DNA of 64,000 bases, taken from Hyphomonadaceae bacterium. Its GTDB lineage: Bacteria; Pseudomonadota; Alphaproteobacteria; Caulobacterales; Aquidulcibacteraceae. A model generated the notes under the pieces. The model did no database searches. It was given only the letters and a program-made list of their open reading frames with translations, and was not told the origin of the DNA. The stretch is from assembly GCA_019753175.1 (NCBI GenBank), contig JAIELK010000019.1, positions 1 to 64,000 of the forward strand. Direction: 5' to 3'. Position numbers and translations under genes: made by a program. Below, piece after piece: positions 4,804 to 54,190 of this stretch (position 1 is the stretch's first letter; every line of letters starts with the position of its first letter).

Positions 4804-5634
4804 ATGAACAACGTCCAAGCCCTGGAGACGCCGACGCGTCACGGCGAGATCAAGATTCACGACCCCGCCGTCGCCTTCCCCGGCATGCGTGCGGCGGGTC
4901 AAGTGGCCGCGCGCTGTCTCGACATGCTCGCGGCGGAAGTACGGGAAGGCGTGACCACGCGCCATTTGGACGATCTCGCGCGTGAATTCGTGTTCGACCA
5001 CGGCGCCACGCCTGCGTGCGTCTTCTATCGCGGCTACCGTCACACCATCTGCACCTCGCTCAATCACGTCGTCTGCCACGGCATTCCCGGCGAGCGCGTG
5101 CTGCGCAGCGGCGACGCGCTCAACATCGACGTCACCGTCATCGTCGATGGCTGGCACGGCGACACCAGCCGCATGTACGTCGTCGGCGAGCCATCGCGCA
5201 AAGCCGAACGGCTGATGGACATCACCTACGAAGCGATGATGCGCGGCATCGCCGCGATCAAGCCAGGCCTGCGCTTGGGAGACCTGGGTCACGCCATTCA
5301 GCGTTATGCGGAAAGCGAGCGCTGCTCGGTCGTGCGGGAATTCTGCGGCCATGGCCTCGGGCGCGTCTTCCACGACGCCCCGAACATCCTTCATTACGGC
5401 AAGCCTGGCCAAGGCGAAGTGCTCCGCCCCGGCATGATGTTCACCGTCGAACCGATGCTGAACGCCGGCTCGCCCGGCGTGAAGATCTTGGGCGACGGCT
5501 GGACAGCGGTGACCAAGGACAAGTCGCTCTCAGCGCAATACGAGCACTCGGTCGGCGTCACCGAAGACGGGGCCGAAATTTTCACCGCGTCGCCCGCAGG
5601 GCTGCATCAGCCGCACAAACAACCACAAGCGTAA
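4804..5634 (+). CDS. map: Methionine aminopeptidase, type I
   Basis: A 276-residue cytosolic metallopeptidase that removes the initiator Met. The five metal ligands are visible: Asp in [10 protein letters not shown], Asp in WHGDTSRM, His in CGHGLG, Glu in VEPML and Glu in QYEHSVG. It lacks the N-terminal zinc finger of eukaryotic type I enzymes, as expected for a bacterial form. A Gln/His/Pro-rich tail of about 12 residues ends the protein. radC starts 5 bases after the stop, so the two are probably cotranscribed, an arrangement common in alphaproteobacteria. Confidence 0.96.
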
Positions 5635-5639
5635 CAACA

Positions 5640-6449
5640 ATGGCGGCGGGGCGCGGCAACAAAAACAAGACCGCCAAAGGCGCCCGCGTCGAGGATTCCG
5701 AACTCTTCCCATTCAAGCTCGACATCGCGCCGCTCGACGTGGAGCGAGTGTCGGCGCCGCAGCCCGCTGCGGCGGCAAAGCCGCACTATCACGAGCACCG
5801 TGCGCGCTTGCGCAAGCGCTTTGACGACGCGGGCCCCGACGCGCTCGCCGATTATGAGTTGCTGGAGCTGGCGCTCTTCCGCACGATTCCGCGGCAGGAC
5901 ACCAAGCCACTGGCCAAGGCGCTGCTGGCGAAGTTCGGCGACCTTGCCGGCGTGCTCGGCGCACCGGTGCAGCGCATCGCGGAAGTCCCTGGCGCTGGTC
6001 CGGCCGTGGCCCAGGACCTGAAGATCGTGCAAGCGCTGCTTGAGCGTGCGTCCAAGACGCCGCTGACCCAGCGCCCGGTCATCTCCTCGTGGTCTCAGCT
6101 CGTCAATTACTGCCGGGTTGCCATGGCGCACGAGCCGCGCGAGCAGTTCCGCGTGCTGTTCCTCGACGTGAAGAACCAACTCATTGCCGACGAGGTGATG
6201 AATGAAGGCACGATTGACCACGCCCCCGTCTATCCACGCGAGATCGCGCGGCGCGCGCTGGAGCTCTCGGCGGCGGCGGTAATTTTGGTGCACAACCATC
6301 CGAGCGGCGATCCGAAACCGTCGGCAGCGGACGTCGCCATCACCCGCGACATCGTCGCCGCGACCGACGCCATAAGCGTCAAAGTGCACGATCACCTGGT
6401 GATCGGCCGCCACGGCGCGGAAAGCTTCAAAAGTCTGGGGCTTTTGTAA
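5640..6449 (+). CDS. radC: RadC family JAB/MPN domain protein
   Basis: A 269-residue RadC-family protein (JAMM metalloprotease fold). An N-terminal helix-hairpin-helix-like region (about 50-120, with a PGAGPAVA loop) is followed by the MPN domain carrying the metal-binding HNHPSGD motif and the downstream Ser and Asp. The open frame extends upstream into map, but ATG 5640, five bases after the map stop, gives the expected length. The first 50 residues are low-complexity and basic. The cellular role of RadC is unsettled; the original link to DNA repair in E. coli was later withdrawn. Confidence 0.9.
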
Positions 6450-22162: not shown

Positions 22163-25100
22163 TCAATGAAAATTCCGCCCCTTCGGCATCGCTTCGGCGG
22201 CGCCGCTGACAGAGAGATTGATGCGCACATTGCGCAGGTGGCGTTGCGGGTCACCGCGCCAGGACCCGCCGGGGCCTCCTTTCTTCGGTTCGTCGTTCGG
22301 CGTGGTCGCGTCGATGTCCGGCCCGCAGGCGGAAAGCTTCGCGAGCAGCGACGTCCAGTCCAGCACGCGCTCGGCGATCACGTGGATCACGCCGCTTTCG
22401 CTCTGCACCGGGCCGTCGATGGCGACGAGGCGACCGCCCAGCACTTCGGCGCGGAATCGCTCGAACAATTTCGGCCACACCACGATATTGGCGATGCCGG
22501 TCTCGTCCTCCAGCGTCATGAAGATGACGCCCGACGCCGTGCCCGGGCGTTGTCGTACAAGAACCAGACCCGAAACGCGCACGCGCCGGCCATTGCCGAT
22601 CTCCTGCAGCAGCTCGGCCCTGATGGCGCGGCCCTTGTCCAGATTCGCGCGCAGCAGCGCGCAGGGATGTGCCTTCAGCGACAGCCCCAGCGTGCGATAA
22701 TCCTCGACTATATGTTCGCCGAGCGGCATGGAAGGGAGCTGGAAGTCGCCTCCCCCTCCCCCTTGCGGGGAGGGGGCCGGGGGGTGAGGGGCGGGCAAAC
22801 GATCCAACGCAGGATCATTTGAACTCCCCACTTCCGGATCGTTACATCGATCGCGCTGCAAACGCTCCGACGCCTGTGTGTCGGATCGCCCCTCCTCCCC
22901 CAACCTCTCCTCCGCAAGGGAGGAGGGGAGCGCAGCTTCCGCAAACAACGGCAAATCCTCTTGCCCCCCGACGCGGTTCAGCCCCCGCGCGGCCCAGAGC
23001 GCGTCGCGGCGATCGAGGCCGAGCGAGCGGAACGCGTCGATATCGGCGAGGCGCTCGATGGTGGAGGCCGGCAAGCCGCTGCGCAGCCACACATCGCGTA
23101 CAGAATCGTAGCCCCACCCGCGCCGCGCCACGAGCTGTTCCATCTCCGCCCGCTGCAAGCCCTTGGCTTGGCGAAAGCCAAGCCGCAGCGCGTGCGTGGA
23201 GCGGATATCGCTTTCCATCTCACGATGGCGCGGATGCAGGCGCAGGCCGGCGCGGGGGCCGGGCTCAAGCGTGTTGTCCCAGGCGGACTGGTTCACATCG
23301 ATGCCGCGCACTTCGACGCCATGCTCGATCGCATCGCGCACGATCTGCGCCGGCGCATAAAAGCCCATGGGCTGCGCGTTCAGCAAGGCGGCGGCGAACA
23401 CGTCGGGATAATGGCATTTGAGCCAGCACGAAGCGTACACAAGCAAAGCAAAGCTCGCCGCATGGCTTTCGGGAAAGCCGTATTCGCCGAAGCCTTCGAT
23501 CTGGCGGAAGCTCGCTTCGGCGAATTCGCGCGCATAGCCATTGGCGATCATACCGTCGATGAACTTCGCTTTCAGCTGATGAATGGTGCCGACACGCTTG
23601 AACGTGGCCATGGCGCGGCGCAATTTATCCGCTTCCGGCGGGGTAAAACCCGCGCCGACAATGGCGATCTGCATCGCCTGCTCCTGAAACAGCGTCACGC
23701 CTAAAGTGCGCTTCAGAACGTCTTCGAGCGCCTTCGACGGATAGAAGACCTTCTCCAGACCCTGCCTGCGCCGCAGATACGGATGCACCATGCCGCCCTG
23801 GATCGGCCCAGGCCGCACGATCGCCACCTCGATGACGAGGTCGTAGAAATTCTTCGGCCTCAAGCGCGGCAGCATCGACATCTGCGCCCGGCTCTCGACC
23901 TGAAACACACCCACTGAATCCGCGCGATGCAGCATGGCGTACACGCGCGGATCGTCGGGCGGCCAGAAGATGGAGAGATCGCCTCCCCCTCCCCTTGAGG
24001 GGAGGGGGAGAAGAGTGCGCCAGTCCGGGTAATGCGCCGCCATCATATCCAGCGCTTTCTTCAGACAGCTCAGCATTCCCAAGCCCAGCACATCCACCTT
24101 CAACAACCCCAGTGCTTCCAGATCGTCCTTGTTCCACTCGATCACGGTGCGATCTTCCATCGCCGCGTTCTGGATCGGCACGACGTCGTGCAGCTTCTCG
24201 CGCGTGATCACGAAGCCGCCGACATGCTGGGAGAGGTGGCGGGGAAAGCCGTGCAGGTCGCGCGCGAGCGTCACACAGGCGCGCAGGTGCGGGTCGCTCA
24301 CATCGAGCCCCTGCTGCTGCAGGTCGCGCTCGGTGACGCCGTCCGACCACCAATGCAGCGCCTTGGACAGCGCATTGATGCGGTCCTCCGAATAGCCGAA
24401 GGTTTTCGCCGTTTCGCGGATGGCGCTGCGGCCGCGATAGCAGGTGACCACGGCCGACAAGCCCGCGCGGTCGCGGCCGTATTTCTTGTAGATGTATTGG
24501 ATCACTTCTTCGCGGCGCTCGTGCTCGAAATCGATGTCGATGTCGGGCGGCTCATTGCGCTCTTCGGAGACGAAGCGATCGAACAGGAGTTCGTTTTCCG
24601 CCGGGTTCACTTCGGTAACGCCGAGGCAATAGCAGATCGCCGAATTCGCCGCCGAGCCGCGCCCTTGGCAAAGGATCGGGTCGATGACGTTGCCATCCTT
24701 ATCGAAGCCTGAGCGCGCGAAGCGCACGATGTCGGCGACGGTGAGGAAGTACGGCGCGAATTTGAGCTTGGCGACGATGGACAGCTCGCGCCTGAGCGCG
24801 GCATCCACCTTTGCCGGCGCGCCCTGCGGATAGCGCTTGAGCGCCCCGGCCCAGGTGAGCGCTTCCAAGGCTTGTTGCGGATCGGCGAAACCCTCGGCGG
24901 TTTCTTCCGGATATTCGTAGCGCAGATCGTCCATGGAGAAATGCACGCCCTCGAGGAAACGCAGGCTTTCAGCGACCGCATCCGGCGCATCGGCATAGAG
25001 CCGCGCGATCTCCGCCGGCGCTTTCAAGTGCCGCTCGGCGTTTTTCGCCAGCAACGCGCCGGCTTGCGCGAGGGTGGTCTTCTCGCGGATGCAGGTGACG

Positions 25101-25780
25101 ACATCCAAGAGCGCACGCCGTTCGGGGGCATGCATCAACGGCTCGGTGGTGGCGAGGAGACGCGCGCCGGTTTCCTGCGCGAGCGCCTTAAGTTCACGCA
25201 GGCGGCGTTTGTCTTCGCCGTCGAAGCGCATCGGCGCGGCGAGCCAGACCTGGCCGGCAGCTTCGCGGATGGCGGCGAGGTAGGGCGCAAGCCTCCCCTC
25301 CCCCCTTGCGGGGGAGGGGCCGGGGGAGGAGGGGCGCTCCGACACGCAGGTGCCGGACGCGTTTGCACGCCCCTCACCCCCTGCCCCCTCTCCGCAAGGG
25401 AGAGGGGGAATTGCAATCGCCCGCAAGCCCTCCGCATGCTCCAGAAAATCCGCAAACCTGAGCCAGCACTCGCCCTTCGGCGCCCGCAAATTGCCGCGCG
25501 TCAGCAAGCGTGTGAGTTGCGCGTAAGCGGCGCGATCCTGCGGATAGACCATCACATCGGGCGCGTCCGCGAAAACAAGCCGCGCGCCCACCAGCAAACG
25601 CAAACCCTGCTCCTTGGCCGCCATATGCGCGCGCACCACGCCCGCCAGCGTATTGCGATCGGCAACGCCCAGTCCCGCAAGCCCCAGCATTTTGGCCTTC
25701 TCGACCATCTCTTCCGGATGCGACCCCGCGCGCAGGAAAGAAAAATTCGTCGTCACGCAGAGTTCGGCGAACGCCGTCAT
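22163..25780 (-). CDS. dnaE2: Error-prone DNA polymerase DnaE2 (ImuC), enlarged by in-frame palindromic repeats
   Basis: A 1205-residue C-family polymerase used in damage-induced mutagenesis with ImuA and ImuB. The PHP domain starts at MTAFAELCVTTNFSFLRAGS, polymerase aspartates are in PPDIDIDFEHERREEV, the HhH region and the OB domain (RVRVSGLVLVRQRPG) follow. ATG 25780 is the family start; the frame is open further upstream. At about residues 124-163, 590-600 and 950-1010 the protein is interrupted by Gly/Pro/Glu-rich stretches encoded by palindromic repeats, making it roughly 100 residues longer than I expect. A LexA box lies 26 bases upstream. imuA and imuB are not beside it. Confidence 0.94.
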   Translation of the reverse strand: MTAFAELCVTTNFSFLRAGSHPEEMVEKAKMLGLAGLGVADRNTLAGVVRAHMAAKEQGLRLLVGARLVFADAPDVMVYPQDRAAYAQLTRLLTRGNLRAPKGECWLRFADFLEHAEGLRAIAIPPLPCGEGAGGEGRANASGTCVSERPSSPGPSPARGEGRLAPYLAAIREAAGQVWLAAPMRFDGEDKRRLRELKALAQETGARLLATTEPLMHAPERRALLDVVTCIREKTTLAQAGALLAKNAERHLKAPAEIARLYADAPDAVAESLRFLEGVHFSMDDLRYEYPEETAEGFADPQQALEALTWAGALKRYPQGAPAKVDAALRRELSIVAKLKFAPYFLTVADIVRFARSGFDKDGNVIDPILCQGRGSAANSAICYCLGVTEVNPAENELLFDRFVSEERNEPPDIDIDFEHERREEVIQYIYKKYGRDRAGLSAVVTCYRGRSAIRETAKTFGYSEDRINALSKALHWWSDGVTERDLQQQGLDVSDPHLRACVTLARDLHGFPRHLSQHVGGFVITREKLHDVVPIQNAAMEDRTVIEWNKDDLEALGLLKVDVLGLGMLSCLKKALDMMAAHYPDWRTLLPLPSRGGGGDLSIFWPPDDPRVYAMLHRADSVGVFQVESRAQMSMLPRLRPKNFYDLVIEVAIVRPGPIQGGMVHPYLRRRQGLEKVFYPSKALEDVLKRTLGVTLFQEQAMQIAIVGAGFTPPEADKLRRAMATFKRVGTIHQLKAKFIDGMIANGYAREFAEASFRQIEGFGEYGFPESHAASFALLVYASCWLKCHYPDVFAAALLNAQPMGFYAPAQIVRDAIEHGVEVRGIDVNQSAWDNTLEPGPRAGLRLHPRHREMESDIRSTHALRLGFRQAKGLQRAEMEQLVARRGWGYDSVRDVWLRSGLPASTIERLADIDAFRSLGLDRRDALWAARGLNRVGGQEDLPLFAEAALPSSLAEERLGEEGRSDTQASERLQRDRCNDPEVGSSNDPALDRLPAPHPPAPSPQGGGGGDFQLPSMPLGEHIVEDYRTLGLSLKAHPCALLRANLDKGRAIRAELLQEIGNGRRVRVSGLVLVRQRPGTASGVIFMTLEDETGIANIVVWPKLFERFRAEVLGGRLVAIDGPVQSESGVIHVIAERVLDWTSLLAKLSACGPDIDATTPNDEPKKGGPGGSWRGDPQRHLRNVRINLSVSGAAEAMPKGRNFH
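22749..22795 (+). repeat. GC-rich palindromic repeat inside dnaE2 (pair C, first arm)
   Basis: A hairpin core CCCCCTTGCGGGGAGGGGG followed by a G-rich arm ending GTGAGGGGCG. It is translated in frame within dnaE2. Same family as the copies near 22.9, 24.0, 25.3, 25.4 and 54.0 kb. Confidence 0.75.
22864..22930 (-). repeat. GC-rich palindromic repeat inside dnaE2 (pair C, inverted arm)
   Basis: Inverted copy of the same element: CGCCCCTCCTCCCCC arm, then a core around CTCCGCAAGGGAGGAGG. Conservation extends outward: the flank CTCCGACGCCTGTGTGTCGG resembles the spacer of the pair at 25.3 kb, so the unit is larger than the hairpin. Confidence 0.7.
23983..24010 (+). repeat. Short solitary palindromic repeat inside dnaE2
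   Basis: Only the hairpin core is present (CTCCCCCTCCCC, TTGA loop, GGGGAGGGGGAG), translated in frame as a Leu/Pro/Gly-rich stretch near residue 590. It appears to be a reduced copy of the paired elements. Confidence 0.65.
25292..25336 (+). repeat. GC-rich palindromic repeat inside dnaE2 (pair A, first arm)
   Basis: Core CCCCCCTTGCGGGGGAGGGG followed by the G-rich arm ending GGAGGAGGGGCGC. It encodes part of a Gly/Pro/Ser-rich insert near residues 148-163 of DnaE2. Confidence 0.75.
25368..25408 (-). repeat. GC-rich palindromic repeat inside dnaE2 (pair A, inverted arm)
   Basis: Inverted partner of the copy at 25.3 kb, separated by about 31 bases: CGCCCCTCACCCCCTGCCCC arm and a CTCTCCGCAAGGGAGAGG core. 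It encodes the start of the first DnaE2 insert (about residues 124-137). Confidence 0.75.
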
Positions 25781-53872: not shown

Positions 53873-54190
53873 TCTGCCGACGGACCTGGTCATCACGCCT
53901 GCGCCGGGCCGAAGCGAGATGTCTGAGCGTTTGCGCAAACACGGTGTTTCGCCCCCCTCTTATCCCCTCCCCTTGCGGGGAGAGGGTGCGCGATTCGACG
54001 ACGCCGTCTCCGACGCCTGCTTCCAGTCGCCCCCACGGGCGACACACTCGCACGGCACATGTTGTACACCCTTTGCGATGCATTAGGTGTGTGTCAGCCA
54101 CTGTAGCCACCCACTGCAGGACATCAAGGGCCTATTACCGAGGCGGCTCGGACAAAAACAGGCAGTTCAATCCAGTGCGGCGCTGACGCT
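53873..54190. other. Gene-free interval between convergent small membrane genes
   Basis: About 320 bases with no supported gene. It holds a palindromic-repeat copy at 53964-53986 and, at about 54009-54042, a stretch starting CTCCGACGCCTG that matches the outer flank of the repeat pair near 22.87 kb. Nothing else recognised. Confidence 0.6.
53964..53986 (+). repeat. GC-rich palindromic repeat (intergenic copy)
   Basis: CCCCTCCCCTTGCGGGGAGAGGG, same core as the copies inside dnaE2, here between genes, showing that the element is dispersed and not a part of dnaE2. Confidence 0.65.

Follow-up and report, generated by a model that had tools for sequence, protein, structure and literature searches.

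Three palindromic inserts lie in frame within dnaE2

The stretch of DNA analysed here (the window) comprises 64,000 nucleotides of contig JAIELK010000019.1 of a Hyphomonadaceae bacterium (assembly GCA_019753175.1) and carries dnaE2, a gene for an error-prone DNA polymerase III alpha-like protein that contains three palindromic inserts (Table 1). The open reading frame (ORF) is unbroken across all three inserts; its start is taken as the ATG at 25780, while the ORF list begins farther upstream, at a TTG. A match to dnaE2 is present in 61/61 genomes, in some of which the best match is dnaE1 instead of dnaE2, and the closest named dnaE2 relatives are metagenome-assembled genomes (MAGs), one of them labelled Hyphomonadaceae.

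Insert 1 is a complete unit resembling a REPIN, an inverted doublet of repetitive extragenic palindromic (REP) sequences. Specifically, it occupies 116 bp (25294-25409), in which inverted arms of 43 and 42 nt flank a 31-nt spacer. Insert 3 spans 179 bp from arm to arm (22751-22929), with a spacer that is ~60 nt longer than that of insert 1 and in which the GCAAACG spacer end is present twice; judging from its sequence, it looks like two fused units. The four arms of inserts 1 and 3 score 64.5-66.8 bits (E 4e-10 to 9e-10, covariance model with filters off), and these scores are high by construction because the same arms went into building the model. Folded as single-stranded DNA, inserts 1 and 3 lie 5.6 and 6.1 standard deviations below shuffles. 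Insert 2 is a solitary hairpin core with a perfect 12-bp stem and a weak model score. An earlier note, written from the sequence of the window, had described two inverted pairs and one solitary core within an intact dnaE2 frame, and this description holds. The sixth copy that it placed at ~53964 turned out to be a weak, degenerate arm-like hairpin and is excluded from the family count.

The AlphaFold model of DnaE2 (42-row alignment) has a mean predicted local distance difference test (pLDDT) score of 80.9. In particular, pLDDT falls below 50 at residues 129-160, 592-603 and 959-1011, which are the three inserts (block means ~30-47) and lie close to the residues named in the earlier note (124-163, 590-600 and 950-1010). 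Scores below 50 are otherwise confined to residues 937-956 (just before insert 3), to the C-terminal linker and the final residues, and to two short segments. All three inserts are thus predicted to sit in loops without order, which fits the suggestion that they are tolerated in surface loops of DnaE2. With the inserts removed, dnaE2 shows a dN/dS of ~0.11-0.18 against five relatives (dS is near or above 1 in most), indicating that the gene is under purifying selection.

Table 1. Coordinates of dnaE2, its palindromic inserts and a weak intergenic hairpin in the window
Feature	Position	Strand	Extent in protein	Model score
dnaE2, error-prone DNA polymerase III alpha-like	22163..25780	minus	1205 aa from ATG at 25780	
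Insert 1 (N-terminal side), few flanking bases included	25286..25417		residues ~129-160	
Insert 1 arm	25294..25336	-		65.6 bits, covariance model
Insert 1 arm	25368..25409	+		65.8 bits, covariance model
Insert 2, solitary hairpin core	23984..24008		residues ~592-603	22 bits, E 0.025
Insert 3 (C-terminal side), composite unit, two inverted arms	22746..22930		residues ~959-1011	
Insert 3 arm	22751..22793	-		66.8 bits, covariance model
Insert 3 arm	22887..22929	+		64.5 bits, covariance model
Intergenic weak, degenerate arm-like hairpin	53950..53987	+		17.9 bits, E 0.13

The inserts belong to a dispersed family

The arm comprises 43 nt, with a 17-nt tail and a 10-bp stem closed by the loop GCAAG. 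Two arms are inverted around a spacer, the tails pair between the arms, and the unit folds into one hairpin; the unit is therefore larger than a simple hairpin, as had been proposed from the window. A model-independent BLASTN search with insert 1 recovers 53 matches at E <=10 in the genome of the window (G000; 3.13 Mb); 30 of these have E <=0.0015, and the best non-self matches have E 1.5e-24. The arm model finds 26 arms of at least 48 bits, which merge into 17 strong places; these 26 arms are the ones from which the covariance model was built, and BLASTN recovers them too. The genome holds at least 39 arms at E 0.01, with 150 of ~1300 first-look candidates scored, so that weak copies may be undercounted. 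At one locus (L204, G000:C6:9941-10439), located between glyS and what by eye resembles a gene for pyruvate phosphate dikinase, two arms in inverted orientation are separated by ~415 bp.

The arm stem is preserved through compensatory changes. Stem positions are paired in 98.3% of 233 cells, against 91.7% in shuffles, and both sides of a pair are changed in 24 cells, against 8.6 in shuffles, counts that kinship among copies can inflate.

Across the genus, with one genome per species in the comparison set, arms at E 0.01 are present in 20 of 23 genomes, G000 included, at 3 to 55 arms each; G002 and G006 have arms at E ~1e-3 at best. Within the order outside the genus, 8 of 14 genomes have matches, none of them better than E 3e-4. 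Two further families, B and C, are dispersed as well: BLASTN queries with one B and one C element matched across several genomes, with up to 33 matches per genome at E 1e-6 for the B query, which also picks up type A copies, and up to 34 for the C query (at most 40 candidates scored).

A mismatch-tolerant pattern search returned seven places, mostly of another hairpin type, and missed real copies; BLASTN and the covariance model were used instead. Rfam gave five matches, all to microRNA families and far below gathering scores, which we took as chance. A search of paper texts for the letters of the arm found, among the matches listed, unrelated-looking papers only.

Copies inside genes share one reading frame

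A copy was counted as in-gene when an ORF spans the element and a codon model, for which 31 long ORFs of the window served as training set and whose in-frame and off-frame scores overlap in their tails, detects coding signal on both sides; genes were named from NCBIfam and Pfam. In G000, eight strong places out of 17 are in-frame copies within genes, namely uvrD (a uvrD/pcrA match below its curated cut-off), ileS (twice), glyS, polA, epmA and dnaE2 (two). Two weaker in-frame copies, the solitary core of dnaE2 and a copy in trmB, where the coding signal is weak on the N-terminal side, bring the total to 10 copies in 7 genes, all of which encode DNA repair/replication or translation/tRNA enzymes. 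The remaining nine strong places lie between genes, at the edges of genes or in unsupported ORFs. Spanning ORFs at C2:185818, C6:10397, C7:7856, C8:65561, C11:41903, C19:65969 and C7:114373, together with other-strand ORFs, have a one-sided coding signal or no family and were not counted.

In the relatives, sampled as 108 stretches from 16 genomes around arm places among the matches listed, 35 of 120 places are in spanning ORFs that pass the codon model. The hosts are uvrC (six copies), polA (three), ileS, trmB, mnmC, a ligase-associated DEXH helicase, pdhB, putA and a chromate transporter (two each), and uvrD, priA, epmA, argS, rsmB, pdhC, hutI and an ArnT-like protein (one each), with several family matches below the curated cut-off (for example argS, rsmB, uvrD and ArnT-like); four copies lie in ORFs without a family (L208, L259, L275, L309). 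The element is thus not mainly a matter of dnaE2: uvrC, polA, ileS, uvrD and others host it, and its sites recur across species.

The printed peptides of 34 of the 35 in-gene copies of the relatives follow one reading frame, GEGR or alike and then PPxPSPQG, in line with the frame bias anticipated in the earlier note. L309 alone departs from it; this ORF matches no family and is possibly not a real gene. On the strand tested, stops are absent from the common frame in 29 of the 32 in-gene dimers that could be anchored and in 33 of 41 other copies. A second frame lacks stops in 16 of the 32, and only L309 uses it. A few dimer anchors are wrong, for example those of L212 and L293, whose printed peptides follow the common frame.

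Bypass elements, which are skipped in translation, are known in other systems, and the strong hairpins within coding sequence would suit palindromes that are skipped in this way or spliced out, so that frame would be irrelevant. Neither an open frame nor one fixed frame would then be needed, and the shared frame of 34 of the 35 copies, together with the open ORFs around all 35 (itself the counting criterion), makes skipping or splicing extremely unlikely.

dnaE2 sites are filled or empty among relatives

In an alignment of 39 dnaE2 copies, some of them partial and one (G016) with an internal stop, 34 are without a palindromic insert; frame-broken dnaE2 loci (G013, G023, G026, G031) were left out, as was uvrC of G014 from the corresponding alignment. 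Palindromic inserts are present in 4 of 28 same-genus copies (G000, G011, G017 and G028) and in 1 of 11 copies from outside the genus (G036, from another genus of the family), and G011 has a second dnaE2 copy without one. Among the best 80 of 593 named dnaE2 loci, three carry palindromic in-frame inserts: Rhizobium MAG Q54 (L095) at q574 and q867, Methylocapsa sp. S129 (L089) at q822, and a Rhodospirillaceae MAG (L155) at q816. The recurrent positions are q148, q574 and q816-822 (L042 numbering). Non-palindromic inserts occur at other places in two other genomes and in G035 (q92 and the C-terminus).

The inserts could in principle be old structural loops of DnaE2 rather than insertions, and the sisters G000, G011 and G028 do share the sites q148 and q574, with q927 also shared by G000 and G028. 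However, the inserts of the sisters are strongly different in sequence, arms identical or very close to these are present within other genes and between genes, and 24 of the 28 same-genus copies (a few of them partial) are without a palindromic insert. The old-loop reading is refuted by these empty sites, and we give it next to no credence. Both outcomes named beforehand as fatal to an invading repeat, conserved inserts in all relatives and only a few copies in the genome, failed to appear. Of the four checks suggested in the earlier note, three turned out in its favour, namely the genome-wide family, the in-frame copies with their frame bias and the empty dnaE2 sites.

The dnaE2 arms of G028 (L066) and G011 (L072) hold nested mini-palindromes of GTCGAC and GGCCGC type, and the elements look mosaic. 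Among 20 dnaE1 controls, none has an insert of at least 12 residues or an arm, while four contain a perfect 9-13 bp hairpin in their own sequence; a hairpin alone is therefore no evidence of an insert.

The uvrC linker is occupied by three families

In each of the 11 host genes compared in at least two genomes, the inserts share one position or nearly so, allowing for single-arm copies, which count the spacer as flank and are shifted by up to ~26 columns, and for the uvrC row L264, which aligns 38 columns off although its flanking residues are identical. The ileS gene of G000 holds a second insert site.

Recurrence is clearest in uvrC, which was found in 30/30 genus genomes searched. The linker just before GGVDFSKE is readable in 24 of the 30 (unread in G001, G011, G014, G025, G026 and G028) and contains an element in 18 of the 24: type A in six, type B in five, an A/B hybrid in one and type C in six. 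The other readable linkers comprise five without an element and that of G000 (L362, G000:C29), which holds a decayed C-like palindrome remnant.

On a quick tree of dnaE2 and uvrC minus inserts, with some rows partial, the element-type labels of 25 genomes (G025 labelled 'none' from the alignment) require 16 changes, against a shuffled mean of 14.7, with 93% of shuffles at or below 16; phylogenetic signal is therefore not seen. The close sisters G003 and G007 differ at the linker, with types C and B, respectively; after its C element, G003 retains a tail that can be aligned with the final part of the B element in G007. In the uvrC element of G013, the left 60 nt are nearest to B and the right 60 nt nearest to A. 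The C element of G006 is 87-90% identical to dispersed C copies of other genomes, compared with 73-81% to the four orthologous uvrC elements listed, and the B element of G005 best matches the uvrC element of G007, with a dispersed copy close behind. The uvrC linker is thus a fixed site, recurrently occupied or replaced by three families.

Repeated de novo insertion at the same sites, through a preferred target sequence or DNA state and without replacement, would also account for the presence of three families, without phylogenetic signal, at a single uvrC linker, for the shared positions in 11/11 host genes compared and for the G006 element. Furthermore, if a 30-bp linker accepted elements as readily as neutral intergenic DNA does, 0.002-0.005 hits per genome would be expected (a rough figure, with copy number and intergenic length assumed), against the 18/24 observed, and dnaE2 site q574 is also filled in the Rhizobium MAG as well as in a different genus of the family. 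Against it stand the lack of a target duplication or a clear flank motif, and the hybrid and possible remnant elements, which point to in-place replacement. On balance, repeated de novo insertion is somewhat unlikely, yet a serious contender.

Host genes are enriched in repair and translation functions

Over both sets, 13 of 19 identified host families belong to DNA repair/replication or translation/RNA modification, against 4 of 18 in a baseline (Fisher p 0.006); with unidentified families counted as negative, the figures are 13 of 23 against 4 of 30 (p 0.001). Families were sorted into functional classes by general knowledge, and the baseline, 30 other long window ORFs scanned with two libraries, is small and local. 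The window also carries DNA polymerase IV and RadC-family genes (731-2356 and 4986-6446), so this background is not poor in repair genes.

The enrichment and the filling of the uvrC linker in 18 of 24 genomes are what would be expected if the inserts were kept for function, with hairpins tuning translation or mRNA decay, or peptides tuning the activity, of DNA-repair and tRNA enzymes. This is nonetheless an unlikely explanation: relatives are without inserts at the same sites, element sequences vary freely, the baseline is limited as stated, and detection favours conserved genes with clear coding signal.

No linked RAYT was seen with the element

The earlier note raised the possibility that a REP-associated tyrosine transposase (RAYT) travels with the element, and this was not borne out. 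The transposase search covered Y1_Tnp (PF01797), which gave 34 matches in 16 genomes. None of the 30 loci examined has an arm at E 0.01 within ~1.5 kb; one weak arm match (E 0.045) was seen. At E 0.001, 10 of the 23 genus genomes gave no Y1_Tnp match, a count subject to draft assemblies and profile sensitivity. Arm-rich genomes without it include G013 (25 arms), G016 (17), G017 (29) and G020 (25; a single contig), and G004 has Y1_Tnp and no arm. A dedicated, linked RAYT is made unlikely by both observations, arm-free Y1_Tnp loci and arm-rich genomes without Y1_Tnp. Although G000 itself has three Y1_Tnp matches (one with an in-frame stop) and the unit has REPIN architecture, RAYT-driven transposition with a dedicated, linked enzyme, as in Pseudomonas, is thus quite improbable here.

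Comparison with known palindromic elements

REPINs are described as inverted REP doublets that form one hairpin with their spacer and are dispersed, with almost all copies extragenic and each RAYT flanked by a REP (PMC3116915, PLoS Genet. 2011). The present family likewise consists of inverted arms and a spacer that fold as one hairpin, in a dispersed, multicopy family. It differs in that 8 of 17 places in G000 and 35 of 120 in the relatives are in genes, and in that no RAYT flanked by the same REP was seen among the 30 of 34 Y1_Tnp matches examined. The target-site duplication of miniature inverted-repeat transposable elements is absent, the ends of 80 dimers being no different from shuffles.

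According to the text of Di Nocera, De Gregorio and Rocco (2013, PMC3733652), the GTAG and CGTC REP super-families are palindromic repeats, mainly inverted dimers and mainly intergenic, with some copies in ORFs, many of these in replication/repair genes, DnaE2 being named and tRNA synthetases noted; the presence of REPs in repair genes was judged hard to attribute to chance. The CGTC REPs are described there as having no linked transposase, and a shared insert site is reported in that text for recB of two Xanthomonas species alone, other genes being hit at differing sites. The present elements are alike in being inverted-dimer palindromes, some of them in ORFs and, as for CGTC REPs, without a linked transposase (here, Y1_Tnp). 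They differ from CGTC REPs as described there in having an arm whose 10-bp stem is closed by GCAAG, a loop of 5 nt, and whose 17-nt tail pairs with that of the other arm. Compared by eye with that text, which allows CCTC heads, the arm lacks the CGTC features (an 8-9 bp stem with A-T at the first two positions, a CGTC-type head and a CCA-type tail) and the unpaired head of the GTAG type. Furthermore, one linker here holds three families across the genus, in contrast to the hosts in that account. In the open literature searched, a scope that did not extend to the host-gene list in the additional file of the 2013 paper, we came across no account in which a single gene site harbours several palindrome families across a genus. 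Palindromes in repair genes are thus of a known kind, whereas this family, and the turnover of several families at fixed sites, look new within that literature.

Rickettsia palindromic elements, reviewed in PMC10969869 as ~150-bp sequences inserted in frame in many unrelated genes, resemble the present family in the latter property, which lends support to the analogy drawn in the earlier note. By their description, they differ in that the present elements are GC-rich, belong to another lineage and come in several families that re-occupy one site. Intragenic small mobile repeats of enterobacteria and other bacteria (PMC2759123, PMC2229807, PMC5896051) are, as described, likewise short, non-autonomous and in genes. 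The coding palindromes of nematomorph mitochondria (PMC6649704) also keep palindrome and protein function together; in contrast, both of their arms are described as encoding conserved residues, and they are not dispersed insertions.

Interpretation

The dnaE2 inserts are, with good confidence, copies of a dispersed, non-autonomous and putatively mobile REPIN-like element kept in frame within loops. The element would consist of two inverted ~43-nt palindromic arms around a short spacer, moved in trans or spread by recombination without a linked RAYT. Copies would persist in genes where they land in frame within flexible loops and where their reading follows a single frame (..SLAEKGLGGEGRSN..APHPPTPSPQGGGG..), hydrophilic and for the most part free of stops, and because of this location and this frame the host protein would stay functional. 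In a linker that carries an element, one from a different family may take its place, as the hybrid and the possible remnant at uvrC suggest, and such replacement, together with structural limits on loops, would explain the recurrence of the same sites.

Several points weigh against this interpretation. Many of the relatives are fragmented drafts. The length of the dnaE2 loop at q574 varies without a palindrome in G004, G022 and G025, and both-side changes in the arm stem occur in just 3 of 10 pairs, not above shuffles. Direct repeats at the ends of 80 dimers are no longer than in shuffles, giving no target duplication. In addition, the uvrC element types were assigned by eye from sequence and peptide, and some neighbours (G020, G027, G029) share a type, so that part of the uvrC pattern may be vertical. 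Comparison of uvrC inserts with copies of the same genome gives a mixed result for type A, the one type fairly compared, since the fetched copies came from the type-A model, which makes the comparison unfair for types B and C. Finally, the occupation of one uvrC linker exceeds what bare tolerance predicts.

Repair and tRNA enzyme genes may accordingly be recurrent landing sites rather than chance victims. A more far-reaching proposal, which we put forward tentatively and hold to be possible rather than probable, is that linkers of UvrC above all, and also of PolA, IleS, UvrD, DnaE2, EpmA, TrmB and MnmC, are standing docking sites, where families take over the same ~10-codon site in frame by targeted insertion or replacement; the repair/tRNA bias would then reflect the system itself instead of chance tolerance, and repair or mutation might be affected. 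Taken by itself, the sequence evidence would be compatible with in-place replacement, with targeted insertion and with selection alike.

Of the new points, recurrence at fixed linkers is the strongest. With ~30 genomes, the same sites filled or empty, several families and one frame, a single genus provides a replicated natural experiment, in which two questions become testable: how REP-like DNA spreads without a linked transposase, and whether palindromes in repair and tRNA enzymes are merely tolerated or alter the production or working of these enzymes. Repeated DNA can thereby supply new flexible linkers to core enzymes.

A second hairpin type

A second type of hairpin, CCCTCACCCT..CTCTCCCCC..GGGGGAGAGGG, is present in G000 (L001, L003, L004, L005, L007 and L035). 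Several of its copies are near contig ends, and it is perhaps an assembly-breaking repeat.

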